Shown in pieces: positions 27,458 to 35,472 of a DNA stretch of 64,000 nucleotides. Numbering within the stretch: position 1 is the first letter of the stretch; the number at the start of each line of letters is the position of its first letter. The stretch is from Lachnospiraceae bacterium (GTDB lineage Bacteria; Bacillota; Clostridia; Lachnospirales; Lachnospiraceae). The position numbers and the translations under genes are program-made. The stretch covers positions 1 to 64,000 of the forward strand of contig JAFZNO010000100.1 of NCBI GenBank assembly GCA_017552985.1, given 5' to 3'. The notes beneath the pieces are model-generated. The model saw only the letters and a list, made by a program, of their open reading frames with translations, searched no databases and had not been told where the DNA came from.

Positions 27458-30088
27458 TTACAGGTTTCTCTCTCTCTTGATGTCAAGTCTTTCCTTTGCA
27501 AGCGTGATCGCTGCGTTAACCATAACGCCAACCACTGCGATCAGCAGGATCGTTCCAATGTCGATCAGATCCACCTTCGCAAGCTTTAAGAGCGTCCTAA
27601 GAGGCGCGATGACGAGAACGCCAATCTGCAGGAGAATGCCGATCAGAGTGATCACGTTCAGCGCCTTATTATTCCAGGATTCCTTCGTAGCAAAGGCAAG
27701 GCTGCCCTTGGTCTTGCAGACGTAGGCCATCAGCATCTCGTTGATCGCCAGCGTGCTGAAGCAGTAGGTTCTGCAGAGCTTTAACAGCTCCTCATTGCCG
27801 CTCAGGTGTCCCAAAATGTCTCCCATGCCATACTGGGAAATGACTGGAAGCAGGAAGGCAAGCAACGCAACTGCGCCGCTGATCACGCCCTGAAGAATGA
27901 TGTTCAGGTAGTCACCCTTGTTCAAAATGCCGGACTTTACGTCTCTCGGCTTTTCATTCATCACCGCGTCAGAGCCCACGTCCATGCCCAGTGCCAGGGA
28001 AGGTGCCGTATCGGTCAGCAGGTTCACCCAGAGGATCTGGATGGTGGAAAGGGGTGAGGACAATCCCGCAAAGATGGAGGATGCCATCAGCACCACCTCG
28101 CCAAAGTTCGATCTAAGCAGATATACAACGGATTTCTTGATGTTATTAAACAGGTTACGGCCTTCCATCACGGCATTCTTGATGGTGATGAAATTATCGT
28201 CCACCAGGATCACTTCCGCGGCATCCTTTGCCACTTCCGTTCCGCCGATGCCCATGGCCACGCCGATGTCTGCAGCCTTCAGGGAAGGAGCGTCGTTCAC
28301 GCCGTCACCCGTCATGGAACAGATCTTTCCGTGAGACTGGAACGCCTGCACGATCTGCACCTTATTCTCAGGAGACACGCGCGCAAACACGCGGTAATTC
28401 AAAACGTTCTTCCGGAATTCCTCGGGATCCATCTCATCGATCTCCGCGCCGGAAATGCTCTGGGAAACGTCCGTTGCGATGTCCAGTTCCTTTGCGATCG
28501 CAAATGCCGTGATCTTATGGTCACCCGTGATCATCGCAACCTCAATGCCGGCATGGTGACACTCATCAACGGTCTCCTTAACTCCGGGCTTCGGAGGATC
28601 GATCATGGCGGCAAGACCAACGAAGATCATGTCCTTCTCCTGAGGAGCCGCATCGCCCTCACGGTATGCCAGGGCAAGTACGCGAAGCGCGTCAGAACTC
28701 ATCTTTTCAGCGGATCTCGTAGCGAGAAGCACGTCCTCGTTCGTGATCTCCCTCACGCCATTTTCGTCAAGAATGCGGTCACACCTTACGATGACGGAGT
28801 CGATGGCACCCTTCGTGTAGGAAACGTCCGTGGTGACGCCGTTCCTAACCACGTGGCCCAGGGTCGTCATCATCTTTCTGTCGGAATCAAAAGGAATCTC
28901 GTCAAAACGGGTAATGCCGGACATGATCTGGTCATATCCAAGCTGATTATCCTTTGCGTACTTGATGAACGCGGTCTCCGTGGGATCGCCGATCTCCTCG
29001 CCGGTCTCTGCGGAATACTTTGCGTCATTACATGCAAGGAAGCCTTCCAGCATCTTTGCAAACACGGGATGATCATGCTGAACGTTCTTTGCCTCGATCT
29101 CCTCGCCGAGCACGTACCATTTCACAACGGTCATCTTATTCTGGGTCAGGGTACCCGTCTTATCGGAACAGATGACGTTCACCGCACCCAATGTCTCCAC
29201 TGCGTGGATCTGCTTTACGATGGCATTGCGTTTACTCATCTTCTGGATTCCGGCGGAGAGCACCAAGGTTACCACCGTGGCAAGTCCTTCCGGAATGACT
29301 GCTACCGCAAACGCGATCGAGATCATCAAGGTCTCAATGATCTCAGTCTTATATACAAAGAGCTGGCACACAAACATCAGAACGCAGAGAACCACGCCCG
29401 CGATGCCGAGCACCATGGAAATGCTGTTCAGGTTCTTCTGAAGGGGTGTTTCCTGCTTCGTGATCTTGTGAAGCATGCTGGAGATCTTACCGATCTCAGT
29501 GTTGTCGCCAATCTTCTCAACGATACCGTCGCCGCGGCCATATTCCACGAGCGTGGACATAAATGCCTTATCCTTGCGGTCACCGAGGGGCGTTTTCTCG
29601 TCACTTTTCTCGTTACAATCCTTTTCCACTGCAAGGCTCTCGCCCGTCAGTGCGGACTCATTCAGCTTCAGGGAGCTGGTCTGCACAAGCTGAAGGTCAG
29701 CTGGCACCACGCGTCCTGCCTCCAACACCACGTAATCTCCAACCACCAGGTCTGCCGCAGGGATCTCCTTCTGCTCGCCGTCACGGATGACAACTGCCGT
29801 GGACGCATTGATCTGCTTGAGCGCTTCCACGGACTTCTCCGCGGACACTTCCTGAACGGTGCCAATGATCACGTTCGCAAGCACGACCACGATGATAATG
29901 ATGCCGTCAATGATCTCGCCCGTCGCGATGGAAATGACGCTCGCTGCGATCAAAAGCAGCAAAAGCGGTGATGCAAACTGTCCCAAGATCATGGAAAAGA
30001 GACTTTTCTTCTTTCCCTGGGTGAGGACGTTTCTCCCTTCCTTCGCCCGCTCTGCCACCTCGGCCGACGTTAAACCTTTGTTTTCCAT
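27458..30088 (-). CDS. Calcium-translocating P-type ATPase (PMCA/SERCA type)
   Basis: An 876-residue P2-type ATPase that exports Ca2+. Phosphorylation motif CSDKTGTLT (about 318), TGES in the actuator domain, GDGVNDAPSLKAADIG in the P-domain, and PEGLATVV in helix M4 (Ca2+ site I) followed by the usual ten-helix arrangement. VNLLTDTAPSLALGMD in M6 carries the site residues. GAGGAA precedes ATG. It has its own strong promoter and terminator. Confidence 0.95.
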   Translation of the reverse strand: MENKGLTSAEVAERAKEGRNVLTQGKKKSLFSMILGQFASPLLLLLIAASVISIATGEIIDGIIIIVVVLANVIIGTVQEVSAEKSVEALKQINASTAVVIRDGEQKEIPAADLVVGDYVVLEAGRVVPADLQLVQTSSLKLNESALTGESLAVEKDCNEKSDEKTPLGDRKDKAFMSTLVEYGRGDGIVEKIGDNTEIGKISSMLHKITKQETPLQKNLNSISMVLGIAGVVLCVLMFVCQLFVYKTEIIETLMISIAFAVAVIPEGLATVVTLVLSAGIQKMSKRNAIVKQIHAVETLGAVNVICSDKTGTLTQNKMTVVKWYVLGEEIEAKNVQHDHPVFAKMLEGFLACNDAKYSAETGEEIGDPTETAFIKYAKDNQLGYDQIMSGITRFDEIPFDSDRKMMTTLGHVVRNGVTTDVSYTKGAIDSVIVRCDRILDENGVREITNEDVLLATRSAEKMSSDALRVLALAYREGDAAPQEKDMIFVGLAAMIDPPKPGVKETVDECHHAGIEVAMITGDHKITAFAIAKELDIATDVSQSISGAEIDEMDPEEFRKNVLNYRVFARVSPENKVQIVQAFQSHGKICSMTGDGVNDAPSLKAADIGVAMGIGGTEVAKDAAEVILVDDNFITIKNAVMEGRNLFNNIKKSVVYLLRSNFGEVVLMASSIFAGLSSPLSTIQILWVNLLTDTAPSLALGMDVGSDAVMNEKPRDVKSGILNKGDYLNIILQGVISGAVALLAFLLPVISQYGMGDILGHLSGNEELLKLCRTYCFSTLAINEMLMAYVCKTKGSLAFATKESWNNKALNVITLIGILLQIGVLVIAPLRTLLKLAKVDLIDIGTILLIAVVGVMVNAAITLAKERLDIKRERNL

Positions 30089-30135
30089 TTTGTTTTTCCT
30101 CGCTTACAAAATAATAAAAATGAGACTCAAAGAAC

Positions 30136-30164
30136 AGTATACCAAACCTATCCGTCTTCGTCAA
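30136..30164 (-). promoter_or_regulatory. Ca2+-ATPase promoter
   Basis: Minus-strand TTGACG, exactly 17 bp, TATACT. Confidence 0.8.
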
Positions 30165-30180
30165 TTTCCGTTTTCTCACG

Positions 30181-30213
30181 AAAAAGCATGCAGTAGGCTA
30201 CACTACCGCATGC
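30181..30213 (-). terminator. Terminator of lipoprotein-PqqD-NT-HPrK operon
   Basis: Minus-strand GCATGCGGTAG/CTACtGCATGC stem with TTTTTC. It overlaps the last codons of the HPr-kinase-like gene. Confidence 0.85.
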
Positions 30214-30931
30214 CTTCATATGCGACCTTCGCCGCCTCAATATCCATGTTGCATCCAAGGCGATACAGCTTTACGCGTTCCGTGAGCGCATCCAACAGCG
30301 TCAACACCATTCGCATTCCCGCCTCATCTACGGGGCGGTATGCCTGCTGTAAGAGTATGGCGTATGCCTGTCCCTTCGTGATCCGCTCCACGTGATTCTC
30401 CGTATCCCGCGTCAAAATACAGATTGCCTTCAGCGGTACAGAAATATTCGCTCCCAGGCGGTGCTTGCCATTGTAGGGCGTTCCATAGGCAATGACGTGG
30501 TCATCCTGAATCCCCAAAAGAGGCTTGTCATCATTGACCATGACGGCCCGCTCTCCCAGATATTTTCTCCAAAGCCTTGTATGCGTTGACTTTCCCGTGC
30601 CGCTCTTGGCCGTGAAGAGATACCCTTCCCCGTCCACTGCGATCACGGAGCCATGAAACAAAAGCACGTCATACTCCAGCATCTTTCTCGCGATTTTGCG
30701 GTAAACGGCTAATTCTTCCAGATAATCATCCGGATACTCCACCAACTGACCGCCCTCGAACTCCGTCTCGCTCTTGTTTTTGGCACGTTCATATTCCACG
30801 TCGGCTTGAGTCGTCACTACGGAATAATCCGCAGGATCCTCCGTAACGTAATCCGCGCAGTAATCATGAACCATATTATGCATGGAAGTCACTTCCACAA
30901 CCTTACCTGCGATCTTATACCTTCTTGTCAT
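30203..30931 (-). CDS. HPr-kinase-like protein
   Basis: A 242-residue protein related to HPr Ser kinase, but of the type found in peptide-maturation loci rather than true HprK/P. P-loop KSGTGKSTHTRLW (about 112-124), HGSVIAVDGEG before it, and the HprK-like VNDDKPLL after it. The C-terminal half is helical. In paeninodin-type lasso peptide clusters such kinases phosphorylate a precursor serine. Its start overlaps the nucleotidyltransferase gene by 17 bases. Here the natural substrate is unknown; the Ser-rich lipoprotein of the same operon is one candidate. Confidence 0.85.
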   Translation of the reverse strand: MTRRYKIAGKVVEVTSMHNMVHDYCADYVTEDPADYSVVTTQADVEYERAKNKSETEFEGGQLVEYPDDYLEELAVYRKIARKMLEYDVLLFHGSVIAVDGEGYLFTAKSGTGKSTHTRLWRKYLGERAVMVNDDKPLLGIQDDHVIAYGTPYNGKHRLGANISVPLKAICILTRDTENHVERITKGQAYAILLQQAYRPVDEAGMRMVLTLLDALTERVKLYRLGCNMDIEAAKVAYEGMR

Positions 30932-32027
30932 ATCGTCTCTTAAGTGCCTTCAAAATTGTTGACACGATACCCTTTCTCGTAATCAGAATCCGTCCCCACC
31001 GGAAAACCACGCCTGCCGGATAGAGCCAAGGCCATTTATCTACAAAAGACACGGACCTCTTCATGTAATCCATGTTAGGGAAAAAGCATTCTAACACAAA
31101 CCGGAGCTTTGACTGTTTCTCAAGTTTCTTTTGTACAAACTGTTCCATGTTCCCGTATGTCCCGGACCTGAGATACTCTGCGAGTACGGCCTCTTCTTCC
31201 GCCGTAAGCTCCGGAAGCCTCTCACTGGAAAAGAGTTTCTTCGCCAGTTTGCGGCGCTCGATTTCAAACTCCTTCATCTCCAGCAAGCTCTCTTGCTCTT
31301 CCACGTAGTTCCAGTCAAGGGAATCACCCTTTTCCTTCAAAAGCACGTATCTGTCAAGAAGAGTTCTGATGCCAATCCCGCTTAAGTCATCATGCTTTCG
31401 TTCATGCGCCGTAAAAAAAACGTAAAAATCCTCATCCGACAAATGATACTCATGACATCGGTTTTCGTTCTTGATCATTAAGCGTTTTACGTCGGCGTAA
31501 TACTCCTGGAAAACCTTGGCATGCCTAGGGGCAAACAGGGATCTGTGCATCTCAAAATTCAGCATCGGAGCCTTAAAATACGCGTCATGATGTCCCTTTC
31601 CAAAAGTCTCTACCGTATATCCGCGCGACAGCATAATTTCCTTAACCGCCTCCATCTTGTCGGCGTCACAGAGCACGTCGTTGTCCGACATCTGTCTCAT
31701 GCCGTTTTCAGGATAAAGCTCCTTTAAAATGATCCCCTTCAACGGCAAGTACCAGATACCATGCTCTTCAAAAGCATCAAAAATGGCCTGTCTCTCAAGA
31801 TCAAAGCATATGTTTTTGCGAACGGCTTTGCTTAGCGTCTCATGAAACTCCTTGCGCTTCACGCCTGCACGTTCCAAGGCTATGCACGTTGCCCCCGTCA
31901 CCATGTGGTATTCCGCCAGACCCCAAACGTTATCCAGATCCATTGCCCGGACCCTTGCGGCATCCGGAGTCACCTCATTGACGGCGCATGACAGCAGGTA
32001 GATCAAATCCCTTGATATTTCATTCAT
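30915..32027 (-). CDS. Nucleotidyltransferase-family protein (NTP_transf_5-like)
   Basis: A 370-residue protein with the minimal nucleotidyltransferase signature: LPLKGIILKELYP, then MSDNDVL (DxD metal site, near 117), then NFEMHRSL. Such proteins are regularly found with PqqD and HPr-kinase-like proteins in RiPP-like loci. The C-terminus is helical with a hydrophobic stretch (WPWLYPAGVVFRWGRILI). Its ATG overlaps the PqqD stop (GAATGA), so translation is coupled. What it adds, and to what, is not known. Confidence 0.82.
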   Translation of the reverse strand: MNEISRDLIYLLSCAVNEVTPDAARVRAMDLDNVWGLAEYHMVTGATCIALERAGVKRKEFHETLSKAVRKNICFDLERQAIFDAFEEHGIWYLPLKGIILKELYPENGMRQMSDNDVLCDADKMEAVKEIMLSRGYTVETFGKGHHDAYFKAPMLNFEMHRSLFAPRHAKVFQEYYADVKRLMIKNENRCHEYHLSDEDFYVFFTAHERKHDDLSGIGIRTLLDRYVLLKEKGDSLDWNYVEEQESLLEMKEFEIERRKLAKKLFSSERLPELTAEEEAVLAEYLRSGTYGNMEQFVQKKLEKQSKLRFVLECFFPNMDYMKRSVSFVDKWPWLYPAGVVFRWGRILITRKGIVSTILKALKRRYDKKV

Positions 32028-32287
32028 TCCACGATTGCTCCAATACCCCTAAGCTTTTCAATGACATTCCCCACGTCGCGCCTTACGGTCTCCGGATCTG
32101 CCTCGGAATACTCCTTCATCAACTTCTCGACAATTTCTTCTTCCGTTACATCCTTCTTCAGACATTCAATGATAAAGGCAGCCGTATTATTATTCTTCAC
32201 AATGCCCTTAAATTTCACGTCCCCCATCGCGATCAGATAATGCTCCCCCTTGGTCACGTGGGTAAGAAATCTGGGATCCAGTTTCAT
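32024..32287 (-). CDS. PqqD-family protein (RiPP recognition element-like)
   Basis: An 87-residue winged-helix protein of the PqqD fold: a short beta segment (YLIAMGDVKFKGIVKNNNTA), then helices with KKDVTEEEIVEKLMKEY and a C-terminal helix RRDVGNVIEKLRGIGAIVE. PqqD proteins bind leader peptides and present them to modifying enzymes. GGAGGGGG precedes ATG. It is translationally coupled to the nucleotidyltransferase gene and lies 20 bp after the lipoprotein gene. Confidence 0.88.
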   Translation of the reverse strand: MKLDPRFLTHVTKGEHYLIAMGDVKFKGIVKNNNTAAFIIECLKKDVTEEEIVEKLMKEYSEADPETVRRDVGNVIEKLRGIGAIVE

Positions 32288-32306
32288 TTTTTGCCCCCTC
32301 CTTAGA

Positions 32307-32918
32307 TCAATTTAACGGTATCAACGGCATCTCGATGAACTCACCGGACTCCTCAGACGTTTCCTCCGTGGACTCAGCGGAAGACTCCTCCGTATTCTGG
32401 GAAGACGTTTCTGCCGCGCTTGAAGATTCACTTCCCGACTCCGAAGAAGCTGGCGAAGGAGTCTCCGCGACAGAAGCTGAACTCTCTGCTGAAGACTCCG
32501 GCTGAGAAGCTTCTGACGTTTTCGTCTCCTTAGACTCTGCCTGTGAAGCTTCCGACTTTTTCGTCTCCTTAGATTCCGCCTGTGAAGCTTCCGACTTTTT
32601 CGTCTCCTTAGATTCCGCCTGTGAAGCTTCCGACTTCTTTGTCTCCTTTGATGCCGCCTCCGAGCTTTCAGTAATCGCCTCCGACGTCTCCGTCTGCGCG
32701 CTCTCAGATTCCTGAAGTGCTTGCGAGGATTCCTCCGTAGGCTTTGTCTCTTCTCCAACCGTCTTCTTCTGACCATCATCCGTTCCGTCGAGGCTTCCCA
32801 CTGACGATTCCATAACCGTTGCCATTTCTTCCGTGTCCGCTTCTTTTCCTGATTGATTTTCACAGGCAGCCAGGAGACACAAGCTTGCCATCACGGCAAA
32901 AAACATACGAATTTTCAT
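32307..32918 (-). CDS. Ser/Glu-rich repeat lipoprotein
   Basis: A 203-residue secreted lipoprotein. A signal peptide ends at lipobox LLAAC (Cys19). The rest is low-complexity Ser/Glu/Ala/Thr with a 13-residue tandem repeat ETKKSEASQAESK (three exact copies and one diverged, about 95-146), and a hydrophobic tail EFIEMPLIPLN. It should be extended and disordered on the cell surface. GAGGAG precedes the chosen ATG. It heads the operon of PqqD, nucleotidyltransferase and HPr-kinase-like genes, which makes it a possible modified product, though co-location alone does not prove it. Confidence 0.82.
   Translation of the reverse strand: MKIRMFFAVMASLCLLAACENQSGKEADTEEMATVMESSVGSLDGTDDGQKKTVGEETKPTEESSQALQESESAQTETSEAITESSEAASKETKKSEASQAESKETKKSEASQAESKETKKSEASQAESKETKTSEASQPESSAESSASVAETPSPASSESGSESSSAAETSSQNTEESSAESTEETSEESGEFIEMPLIPLN
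32505..32660 (-). repeat. 39-bp tandem repeat in lipoprotein gene
   Basis: About four copies of a 39-bp unit encoding ETKKSEASQAESK. Two adjacent copies are nearly identical at DNA level, so copy number may vary between strains. Confidence 0.8.
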
Positions 32919-32941
32919 AACTCTCCTCTTTTCTTGAAAAA

Positions 32942-32977
32942 GGCTGCAATCTACCTTATCGGACAAAAACCGCAGCC
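32942..32977 (-). terminator. Hairpin in lipoprotein-operon leader
   Basis: Minus-strand GGCTGC/GCAGCC stem (24-base loop, short inner CGG/CCG) followed by TTTTTC, 24 bases before the ATG. It lies after a TATAAT hexamer (32990-32995), so it may attenuate the operon, or end the CoA-transferase transcript from 33070. Confidence 0.4.
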
Positions 32978-33069
32978 TGCGTAGTAATAATTATATCGGA
33001 ATTAACGGCTACGGATTTGAGTCCTCACTGCGAGTCGAAGCAGTAATCACGTCTTAAAGCCATATTTTA

Positions 33070-34590
33070 TCAATATTCCGCCACTTCCACCTCGAAAGGC
33101 AGGCGCTTTAGAATATCCCTCTCTGCATCAATGCCTGGATAAACCTCGATCAGGCGAAGTCCCTTCTCTCCCAGCTCGAACACGCATCTTTCCGTCACGT
33201 AGATGACCCTCTGGCCATTCTCTCTCGCGCGCTTTGCGGAGAAGCTCACGCTCTTGACGCGGTCCACGAACTTTCCGATCTCGCCCTCCTGGCGGATCGT
33301 GACCTTGCCGTCCTTCTCCTCCACCGCAAGTCCCTTGGTGTTAAAGGTGAGACAGAACACCACCGTCGCCGTCTTTGCCGTGATGTTGGCGAAGCCACCC
33401 ACCCCTGCAAACGCTCCCGGACCCTTGTGGGCATTGACGTTGCCGTAGCGGTCCACCTCGATGCCGCCCATGAAGCACACGTCCAGGCCGCCATTATCAT
33501 ATAAGTCAAACTGATTGGCCATGTCATAGATGGAGTCCGCACCGATCACGGCCCCAAACACCTTGCCGGATGCCGGGAAGCCGCCCACGCCGCCGGATTC
33601 GACGGTCAGCGTGATCTTATCCAGGATGCCGTTCTCCCGCGCATATTTCGTCACGGTCTCCGGAATGCCCACGCCGATGTTCACGATGTCATCCGGTTTC
33701 AGCTCCATCGCCGCCCTCTTTCCAATAATTTCAGCGCTCGCGTTCACGACGCTCTTCGTCATGGTGCGCTTTTCCAGCATTTCCGCCCAATCCTGCCACT
33801 GGGTATAAGGAATCTCAAAGCTACCGGTCAGGGACTCATAGGCCGCGTGCCGGGGCTCCGGAGGAATCTCCACGATGGCGTCCACGAGGCATCCCGGAAT
33901 AATGGTACTGTGGGGTCTCGAGGTCTTCACCACGAGCCGGTCCACCTGCACGATGACCTTTCCGCCATTGGCCTTCACCGCCTGGCTGATGGACAGCGCA
34001 TCCCCCGCCGTAAACATGTCGTCGAAGGAAATGTTTCCCTTCCGGTCGGCACAGGTGCCCTTTATGATGGCAACGGTGATGCGGGGTAGCTTATAATACA
34101 GGAATTCCTCCCCGTCCAGCTCCACATATTTCACCAAAGAATCATCCTTGGAGATCCCATTGATGCCGGGGCCCTCCATTCTGGGGTCCACGAAAATGTC
34201 CAGACCCACCTTCGACAGTGCGCCCGGAAGTCCGCCCGCCTGTGCCCGGATGGCGTGGGAAATGCATCCCAGCGGCAGGTTATATGCTTCAAACCGATCC
34301 TCCAGCACAAGCTTTTTCGTGCTGTACATCGCCCCAAAGTGCCCGCAGATGATCTTGTCCACCGCGCCCTCGCGAACATACCCTTCCGCCGCGCGGTTCT
34401 CGTCCCAGACTCCAAAACCCGCGCTGGAGATGGCGGTCAGGTGCTTCGGGCTTCCCGTCGCGTGATAGCGCTTATACAACGCTTCATGCAATTCCACGGG
34501 ATTATCAATACCCAAAAAGGAATTCAACGCGATCACGTCCCCGTCCTTTATCAGATCCATTGCCTCATCGGCCGTCATAATCTTGTACAT
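33070..34590 (-). CDS. Acyl-CoA:acetate/propionate CoA-transferase
   Basis: A 506-residue fused alpha/beta class I CoA-transferase resembling propionate CoA-transferase (Pct) and acetoacetate CoA-transferases. The first half carries a GCISHAIRAQAGGLPG segment and the second half ends in a Glu-containing TVESGGVGG (about 335), where the covalent glutamyl-CoA forms. It exchanges CoA between short-chain acids, consistent with anaerobic acid formation. ATG at 34590 has AGGAGAG four bases upstream. It is divergent from the LytTR system and monocistronic. Confidence 0.88.
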   Translation of the reverse strand: MYKIMTADEAMDLIKDGDVIALNSFLGIDNPVELHEALYKRYHATGSPKHLTAISSAGFGVWDENRAAEGYVREGAVDKIICGHFGAMYSTKKLVLEDRFEAYNLPLGCISHAIRAQAGGLPGALSKVGLDIFVDPRMEGPGINGISKDDSLVKYVELDGEEFLYYKLPRITVAIIKGTCADRKGNISFDDMFTAGDALSISQAVKANGGKVIVQVDRLVVKTSRPHSTIIPGCLVDAIVEIPPEPRHAAYESLTGSFEIPYTQWQDWAEMLEKRTMTKSVVNASAEIIGKRAAMELKPDDIVNIGVGIPETVTKYARENGILDKITLTVESGGVGGFPASGKVFGAVIGADSIYDMANQFDLYDNGGLDVCFMGGIEVDRYGNVNAHKGPGAFAGVGGFANITAKTATVVFCLTFNTKGLAVEEKDGKVTIRQEGEIGKFVDRVKSVSFSAKRARENGQRVIYVTERCVFELGEKGLRLIEVYPGIDAERDILKRLPFEVEVAEY

Positions 34591-34641
34591 GGCTCTCTCC
34601 TGTTTCTTTCGTAAACAATTGTCTGCACGCATACGTATAGA

Positions 34642-34670
34642 AGTATATCAAAGCTCTTCTTCCCCGTCAA
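34642..34670 (-). promoter_or_regulatory. CoA-transferase promoter
   Basis: Minus-strand TTGACG, exactly 17 bp, TATACT. Confidence 0.8.
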
Positions 34671-34689
34671 TTCCAACTCCCTTTTCCAA

Positions 34690-34718
34690 TTGAAATCTGG
34701 CCTTTGATAGGCTATAAT
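34690..34718 (+). promoter_or_regulatory. LytTR two-component promoter
   Basis: TTGAAA, exactly 17 bp, TATAAT. Transcription should start near 34725, about 28 bp before the regulator's ATG. Confidence 0.8.
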
Positions 34719-34752
34719 GAATCAGAAATCTGAAAGATACGAGGTTGAACGC

Positions 34753-35472
34753 ATGCTCCGCATAGCAATTTGTGATGATGAACAATCCATGATCGATTTC
34801 CATGCCCAGACCGTGAAAGCCTGCCTTTCCGAAACCGGGATCCTGGGCGAGATCCAAACTTACGTCAACGGCAAAAACCTGCTCTGCGACATTTCGGAGG
34901 ATCATTTTCATTATGATCTGATCCTTTTGGACATCGAGATGCCGGAAATCTCCGGCATGGACCTAGCCCGGCAGCTCCGGCCCTTCCTTCCAGGCGTAAA
35001 GATGATCTTTATCACCTCCCACGTGGAATTTGCGATCGATGCCTATGAGCTGTCCATTTTCCGCTACGTGCCAAAGAATGATCACGAAAAGCGCCTTCCC
35101 GGCGCCATCACGGACGCGATCAAGCTTTTGTCCCTCGAGGCCGACAAGGTCTACACCATCCAGACGAACAGCCGCCTGGAGCGAATCCCCTACCGCGACG
35201 TTCTGTACGTTTCCAAGGACGGGAAAAACGCGCTGATTACCACTGGTACCGGCACGTCCCAGGTCCGCAAGCCCCTGCAACAGGTATTCGATGAGCTAAA
35301 CGCCGAGGAATTCCTGTTTATTGACAGAGGCTGCATCGTAAACCTTATTCACGTCATGCAGATCAAGGATGGCTGCGCCATCTTAAAGGACGGCACCGCC
35401 CTTCCCGTCAGCAGGTCTCACCTACAGGACGTGAAGGAAAAGATTAACGCATATTGGGGGGCACGTCTATGA
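34753..35472 (+). CDS. LytTR-family response regulator (AgrA/LytR type)
   Basis: A 239-residue regulator. The receiver domain (1-125) has CDDE, phospho-Asp in LLDIEMPE and Lys near VPKND; the LytTR DNA-binding domain follows (about 145-235, with RIPYRDVLYVSKDGKNALI and FLFIDRGCIVNLIHV). ATG at 34753 has GAGG eight bases upstream. It overlaps the kinase gene by four bases. Its likely target is the 21-bp-spaced direct repeat at 36824-36854, before the small membrane protein and ABC genes. Confidence 0.93.
   Translation: MLRIAICDDEQSMIDFHAQTVKACLSETGILGEIQTYVNGKNLLCDISEDHFHYDLILLDIEMPEISGMDLARQLRPFLPGVKMIFITSHVEFAIDAYELSIFRYVPKNDHEKRLPGAITDAIKLLSLEADKVYTIQTNSRLERIPYRDVLYVSKDGKNALITTGTGTSQVRKPLQQVFDELNAEEFLFIDRGCIVNLIHVMQIKDGCAILKDGTALPVSRSHLQDVKEKINAYWGARL

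Follow-up and report, generated by a model that had tools for sequence, protein, structure and literature searches.

A Lachnospiraceae kinase and nucleotidyltransferase operon that probably serves short precursor peptides from dispersed genes

What does a set of peptide-tailoring enzymes act on when no precursor peptide is encoded beside it? This question is raised by a 64,000-nucleotide stretch of DNA from a Lachnospiraceae bacterium (assembly GCA_017552985.1, contig JAFZNO010000100.1, positions 1 to 64,000), here called the window, which is part of contig C134 in a 3.86-Mb genome (G000). Its minus strand carries genes for a Ser/Thr/Glu-rich lipoprotein, a PqqD-family protein, an NTP_transf_5 nucleotidyltransferase (NTP transferase) and an HprK-like kinase. 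A first-pass annotation saw lasso-like tailoring enzymes linked to a lipoprotein that they might modify. We favour another answer, with a probability of roughly 0.6: the last three genes, the trio, would form a machine for ribosomally synthesised and post-translationally modified peptides (RiPPs), similar to that of the linear polyphosphorylated peptides (LPP) and acting in trans on dispersed precursors. The cores of these precursors would act with secreted proteins, and the lipoprotein would be an anchored stalk.

The candidate precursors are short open reading frames (ORFs), and 19 of them from loci of related kinases align on the leader pattern Y..P..E.I.F..EDVITTS, in which Y, F, E, D, I and S are invariant. 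A profile built from these 19 replaced an earlier regular-expression search and gives five matches in the window genome (E 3e-13 to 5e-9, on contigs C137, C127, C41 and, twice, C80), plus two further matches at chance level. None of the five is beside the trio, so the first-pass statement that there is no short precursor holds for the neighbourhood of the four genes, where none was found, but not for the genome. Three of the five have F instead of the leader Y. Counting those in kinase loci, the profile has 57 hits, of which 56 reach a score of 20 or more; the residue at the end of the motif is Ser in 49 of these and Asp in one by pattern, with Ser seen by eye in the six that fall outside it. 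A Shine-Dalgarno-like sequence precedes a possible start in 54 of the 56 under a loose rule, and the 50 that fit the pattern have cores of 8–42 aa. Five of the 19 were scanned against Pfam and NCBIfam, giving nothing except a weak StsA match (E 0.27). Literature searches for the strings DVITTS and DVITAS found no paper, nor did one on Ruminococcus short peptides with surface proteins and PqqD.

Most genomes with precursors also have the kinase. Among 61 genomes (the window's own and 60 relatives), precursors are found in three only (G000, its sister G011, and G046), all of which have a kinase at E ≤ 1e-40 with an adjoining PqqD; G000 and G011 have five matches each. The 14 other genomes of the 61 with a kinase hit gave none: 13 have only a distant kinase, in frames mostly of about 400 aa, and one (G018) has a kinase at E ≤ 1e-40 with no PqqD within the 15 kb read. 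A wider draw of 391 genomes from the class contains the kinase (E ≤ 1e-30) in 65, precursors (E ≤ 1e-3) in 42 and both in 39, versus 7 expected (hypergeometric P ~1e-32, uncorrected for kinship). Three precursor genomes lacked a listed kinase, and a kinase-profile search of just these three recovered one in G099 (E 1e-62) and one in two pieces in G242 (E 9e-43 and 8e-32). The precursors are also dispersed: only 11 of 117 matches, picked by eye from match lists, are within 6 kb of a listed kinase (fragmented assemblies inflate this apparent distance), and the genomes with most matches, G260 (20) and G076 (15), have them spread over many contigs.

Most precursors adjoin a gene for a secreted protein. 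We examined 54 precursors at 49 fetched loci, 40 of them from near the top of the 117 matches (some skipped) and nine from G000, G011 and G046; the other three of the 57 profile hits, which lie in kinase loci (L187, L188 and L204), were dropped. A same-strand neighbour within 150 bp, at least 200 aa long and with a signal-peptide-like start, accompanies 41 of the 54. Adjacent genes were called secreted in 45 of 58 cases, versus 59 among the 266 remaining genes at these loci (P 3e-15, using a home-made hydropathy rule and naive gene starts), and the median gap from precursor to upstream gene is 15 bp. In the window genome, the partners include a BspA-type leucine-rich repeat protein, a beta-helix protein and a DUF4838 protein; one precursor is between a response regulator and a seven-transmembrane histidine-kinase-like protein, and two of the seven neighbour proteins scanned have no Pfam match. 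Partners in other genomes include LRR_5, bacterial immunoglobulin-like, GLUG, transglutaminase-core, and pectinesterase plus GDSL lipase proteins, with no match for four of the ten proteins in one set. By eye, several partners (L165, L177, L144, L052 and L059) have C-termini that look alike, with a YGDSAxxY-like stretch, perhaps a C-terminal domain common to them.

Related kinase loci show what usually surrounds the enzyme. A kinase scan of genome contigs gave 373 relatives, of which the best 80 (57–90% identity) were fetched and read; 52 are titled Ruminococcus (counted by eye), Ruminococcus flavefaciens has related loci, and the closest named relative, L044 from an Acetatifactor metagenome-assembled genome, has a kinase 90% identical to the window's. 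On the same strand and within 6 kb of the kinase, the 80 have PqqD in 60, the NTP transferase in 31, a signal peptidase I (SpI)-like peptidase in 61 and an MsbA-like exporter in 53. Many of these stretches are cut by contig ends, and the 38 with 5 kb on both sides have them in 29, 16, 27 and 27, respectively. A short precursor is found in 26 of the 80 (a few several kb off or on the opposite strand) and in 15 of the 43 that have 4 kb on both sides. Twenty neighbourhoods of more distant kinases, fetched from 70 matches in the class search, contain PqqD in 16, SpI in 12, the NTP transferase in three, the exporter in two and a precursor in three. In genome G018, locus L035 (contig C65) has a kinase 51% identical to the window's, and neither PqqD nor the NTP transferase was seen within the 15 kb read.

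The trio order PqqD–NTP–HprK occurs in 12 of the 80, 11 of which have upstream sequence. A Ser/Thr-rich lipoprotein is upstream in six (L044, the window's sister locus, and L045, L046, L050, L052 and L072), two others have a short precursor (L054 and L085), and L060, L075 and L107 have neither by our calls. The first-pass annotation proposed to check whether a lipoprotein always goes with this gene order, and it does not: one is present in six of 11 same-order loci, and in 13 of 100 fetched HprK loci overall by the criteria used for a lipoprotein of the window kind.

All four reading frames are intact in the window genome and its sister, and the enzymes are conserved at key positions. The kinase (30203..30931, minus strand, 242 aa) keeps H93, K114 and D135 in all 36 aligned sequences and D134 in 32, which by position appear to be the His-Lys-Asp-Asp set of lasso kinases described in the consulted part of PMC9266682, the alignment itself being free of lasso and LPP kinases. 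The PqqD protein, a discrete RiPP recognition element (RRE; 32024..32287, minus strand, 87 aa; PF05402, E 3e-14), has invariant N33 and D71 in 25 aligned sequences. These would correspond by position to N33 and D70 of LppB (whose sequence is outside the alignment), the residues in contact with the Pro and Tyr of the leader (PMC13381572). The NTP_transf_5 protein (30915..32027, minus strand, 370 aa; PF14907, E 4e-40) keeps D115 and D117 in all 25 sequences aligned. Known kinase families fit poorly: Hpr_kinase_C matches at E 0.036 with 14 bits versus a curated cut-off of 33.3, the HprK model TIGR00679 gives 15.5 versus 240, and the HPr-rel-A models TIGR04352 and TIGR04353 reach 15.4 of 200 and 22.6 of 35 bits. 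A sequence search for solved relatives found none that convinces (best E 0.31 for PqqD, 0.37 for the kinase and 0.0068 for the NTP transferase, the last spanning 43 residues of a respiratory subunit).

The lipoprotein (32307..32918, minus strand, 203 aa) is as serine-rich as first described, with 44 Ser, 19 Thr and 41 Glu, a LAAC lipobox read from the sequence, and a 39-bp tandem repeat (32493..32659, minus strand, 4.3 copies, 91% matches) coding ETKKSEASQAESK. Membership of an ordinary protein family was considered and rejected, as there are zero Pfam matches and the NCBIfam matches are weak and low-complexity-like. It ends in FIEMPLIPLN (codons at 32310..32339, minus strand), and these last ten residues are identical in the same gene of the sister genome G011. 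C-termini that resemble this tail (IELPxxPx or VELPFVPFD) occur in 13 of 100 other HprK kinase loci. Eight are on lipoproteins, nearly all Ser/Thr-rich (L044, L045, L046, L059, L072, L090, L111 and L188), and five on Ser/Thr-rich proteins with an N-terminal transmembrane anchor, encoded on the opposite strand about 2–3 kb from the kinase (L084, L099, L113, L114 and L115); a match in L086, a 76-aa ORF without an anchor, was dropped as spurious. Lipoproteins of L050/L052, L094, L105 and L204 have other endings. We considered reading IEMPLI in the window tail as a degenerate YxxPx[LVI] site for the RRE, but make no such claim.

The tail can be compared with precursor cores. A single reading frame at L045:6083-6625 encodes a Ser/Thr-rich lipoprotein together with a complete leader, a TTS motif and the tail; GAGGGGG (a possible ribosome site) stands before an internal ATG, so the frame is possibly a fusion or has a nested start. 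The tail repeats the core of the same-locus precursor in L094 (DENEWA) and L050 (PPEGEE). Over ten hand-chosen loci with both tail and precursor (near-duplicates L052 and L115 omitted), same-locus similarity exceeds permutations (P 0.004, a result carried by L050 and L094); the L111 core is closer to the tails of three other loci than to that of its own, and scores in the remaining seven loci are 9–20 versus a cross-pair mean of 13. For the window tail, the best two of 49 cores compared (out of 57, the others being outside the pattern used) are both ITMPYQPID(P), one from the same genome and one from the sister genome (shuffle P 0.04), and [IV]x[LM]P is present in eight of the 49. The lipoprotein may therefore be a stalk with a core-like tail exposed at the surface, as substrate, decoy or docking site, though its part as anchored substrate or display protein is less certain than the rest of our reading.

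We propose the following mechanism, in which the chemical steps, export and the lipoprotein's role are all predicted, while the gene layout, the co-occurrence with the kinase, the scattering of the precursors, their gene neighbours and the kept motifs are observed. The PqqD protein would bind the leader of short precursors encoded elsewhere in the genome, the HprK-like kinase would phosphorylate or polyphosphorylate the conserved Ser of the TTS motif, and the NTP_transf_5 protein would extend that phosphate with another group. The leader would then be cleaved off by a signal-peptidase-like protease, with its gene on contig C122, and the short cores would act at the cell surface with the secreted proteins encoded beside them. 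The lipoprotein is probably a fixed, leaderless form of the core, i.e., an extra substrate or a display protein.

Several points weigh against this reading. The kinase was not found in G300 even by profile despite its precursors, 26 of 65 kinase genomes gave zero precursors, and kinship stands uncorrected behind the co-occurrence, with many of the genomes fragmented (which also exaggerates dispersal). Four of the five window-genome precursors have no leader Pro. The secreted-neighbour rule fails for 13 of 54 precursors and depends on our own hydropathy rule and gene starts. The lipoprotein has no leader motif, its kind is present in a minority of HprK loci, and its tail resembles the cores weakly, as judged from sequence, with L050 and L094 carrying the permutation result. 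The genome's best match to the Ruminococcus-type exporter is just 29% identical and is beside a diverged second enzyme set on contig C34, and that set or the C122 PqqD could serve the same precursors.

The lipoprotein could instead be the main substrate, delivered by PqqD to kinase and transferase and modified on its tail or Ser-rich stalk before Sec export, with the scattered precursors served by other sets. This fits its place in the operon, the tail that is unchanged in the sister genome and recurs as IELPxxPx on other anchored stalks, the L045 frame with its leader and core, the L050 and L094 tails that equal a core in cis, and the window tail's closest core matches, which come from the same genome and its sister. 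However, the window lipoprotein has no leader motif and its tail has no Ser or Thr, five of the 11 same-order loci and most fetched HprK loci do without it, the L111 core prefers other loci's tails, and precursor–kinase co-occurrence points to peptides as the substrates. We therefore consider it unlikely in this form, while a narrower version of the lipoprotein-modification idea survives because the tail is core-like and one relative is fused to a whole precursor. Decay is less probable still. An LPP cluster that had lost its local precursor, protease and exporter would leave a trio without present function, and the absence of SpI and exporter beside the trio, a chance-level DVITAS trace before the lipoprotein, and the presence of the trio in just two of the 37 genus genomes searched with the kinase would all suit such a relic. 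Against this, the frames are intact in both genomes and active-site residues are kept, each genome has five precursor matches, and a 63% identical SpI homologue is encoded on another contig.

It is also conceivable that the short ORFs are unmodified, i.e., small companions of secreted proteins that PqqD binds for some other purpose such as secretion timing. Their tight coupling to secreted-protein genes (the 15-bp upstream gap) would be expected in that case, but both the TTS Ser and the kinase residues are strongly conserved, and phosphorylation in the homologous LPP system falls on a Ser shortly after the leader (PMC13381572), so we regard this as very improbable. Hardly credible, in our view, are ordinary paeninodin-type lasso tailoring genes with cyclase and protease elsewhere. 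The RRE, kinase and NTP transferase are of the same kinds (PMC7533575 and PMC9266682, as far as consulted), but Transglut_core3 (PF13471, the lasso B2 protease) has zero matches in the whole window genome, 61 of 80 relatives have an SpI-like peptidase within 6 kb of the kinase, and no ring-forming pattern is evident by eye in the cores. No macrolactam cyclase is among the trio's nearest genes, where it was looked for, the cyclase family not having been searched in this genome or its relatives. The first-pass view was right that enzymes of the lasso tailoring kind stand here without the lasso enzymes proper, and that a Ser-rich lipoprotein is linked to them.

The layout of the locus agrees largely with that annotation. 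All four genes are real and on the minus strand, in the order lipoprotein, PqqD, NTP_transf_5, HprK-like, and they share one terminator, a strong hairpin followed by a T run after the kinase gene (30185..30214, minus strand; z -5.4, 0 of 200 shuffles as good), which a simple terminator scan did not list. The description of the genes as tightly spaced and mostly overlapping needs adjusting: PqqD and NTP_transf_5 overlap by 4 nt and NTP_transf_5 and HprK by 17 nt, but the lipoprotein is separated from PqqD by 19 nt. Shine-Dalgarno-like sequences, as read, precede lipoprotein and PqqD. The operon is flanked by a P-type ATPase and a CoA-transferase, with a two-component pair also among the nearest genes, and Rfam at gathering threshold gave zero RNA-element matches in 29900-34900. 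Between the CoA-transferase stop and the lipoprotein is a possible precursor trace reading DVITAS (33012..33053, minus strand), a chance-level match (E 2.67) with an in-frame stop directly before it; it is nearly identical in the sister genome.

The SpI-like peptidase and exporter, common near the kinase in relatives, are not at the window locus. Contig C122 encodes the SpI homologue, 63% identical to the Ruminococcus type, next to another PqqD, and the nearest exporter belongs to the diverged LPP-like set on C34 (L011:5088-13518), which has an SpI-like peptidase, a PqqD–HprK fusion, an MsbA-like exporter and a further PqqD. The C122 peptidase and C34 exporter could cooperate with the window trio. 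The fusion (415 aa) has a kinase half recognised by 29% similarity to the window kinase rather than by Pfam, and its existence supports the idea that the two domains work together. Also in the C34 set is a long frame that includes an NTP_transf_5 domain and has a glycosyltransferase-like beginning by eye. The C122 row (L014:23-12070) contains a 1181-aa protein with a solute-binding-protein match, PqqD, the SpI-like peptidase and an NTP_transf_5 protein, and glycosyltransferase-like genes by eye.

If our reading is correct, dispersal offers a reason for a trio with no precursor beside it, and gut and rumen genomes can be searched for precursors with the leader motif. What LPP and paeninodin peptides do is described as unknown in the available text of PMC13381572, and precursors that typically follow genes for secreted surface proteins or enzymes by about 15 bp suggest that the peptides belong to the biology of those co-encoded proteins. 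A tentative extension, which we think possible and hold with clearly less confidence, is a trans-acting network in gut and rumen Clostridia: one kinase–transferase machine would modify as many as some 20 tiny peptides, many of which come with a secreted protein of their own, the modified cores would be partners or tags of those proteins, and anchored stalks would display the same kind of core on the membrane as a fixed end.

How does this compare with known systems? HprK-superfamily kinases also occur in SynChlorMet (ScmC) and HPr-rel-A systems, the latter with a PqqD-family partner by model names, and ScmC is the best NCBIfam match of the window kinase (E 8e-7), but all SynChlorMet and HPr-rel-A matches are far below curated cut-offs. 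Prochlorosins and synechococsins likewise have one modification enzyme for many, possibly genome-scattered, precursors, but they use ProcM lanthionine chemistry and Nif11 leaders and come from cyanobacteria, and the consulted part of that source does not mention secreted-protein pairing (PMC10783134). Paeninodin- and pseudomycoidin-type lasso clusters share the RRE, the HprK-like kinase with its His-Lys-Asp-Asp set, and the NTP transferase, the pseudomycoidin enzyme PsmN having been linked to hexose addition on phospho-Ser (PMC9266682, as far as consulted). By analogy with LPP, the kinase target here would be the Ser just after the leader, versus the C-terminal Ser of paeninodin-type lasso peptides.

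The LPP peptides of Bacilli are closest, and the cyclase-free combination of RRE, HprK and NTP transferase has been published for them (Popov et al. 2026, PMC13381572), so the machinery itself has a precedent, contrary to what was first suggested. According to the available text of that paper, LPP clusters comprise a precursor (lppA), kinase (lppK), RRE (lppB), SpI-like peptidase (lppS), exporter (lppD) and NTP transferase (lppN), with one to three precursors each; the kinase puts several phosphates onto the third residue after the leader, and the biological role is stated as unknown. The systems share the discrete RRE, HprK-like kinase and NTP transferase, the SpI-like peptidase and MsbA-like exporter (in relatives), a leader with Tyr and Pro and then a conserved Phe and Ser, and the RRE contact residues by position. 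They differ in their hosts, which here are not Bacilli, and in the window's SpI and exporter, which are either missing or encoded away from the trio. The precursors here are scattered and often lie next to a secreted-protein gene, and in some loci a lipoprotein or a stalk anchored in the membrane bears a core-like tail. The LPP leader YxxPxVLxHQxIxFETxxS was not found in the cluster; the precursors here lie outside the locus and have another leader, spaced P-x6-F with EDVITTS rather than P-x9-F with ETxxS. Neither the available text of the LPP paper nor our literature searches contained this leader type, dispersed precursors, secreted-protein pairing or an anchored core-like stalk, and the words lipoprotein, Clostrid, Ruminococc and Lachnospir are absent from the paper's main text. 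By analogy, then, the window machinery appears to belong with the LPP peptides in its mode of working, though its precursors carry a leader other than the one that defines that family.

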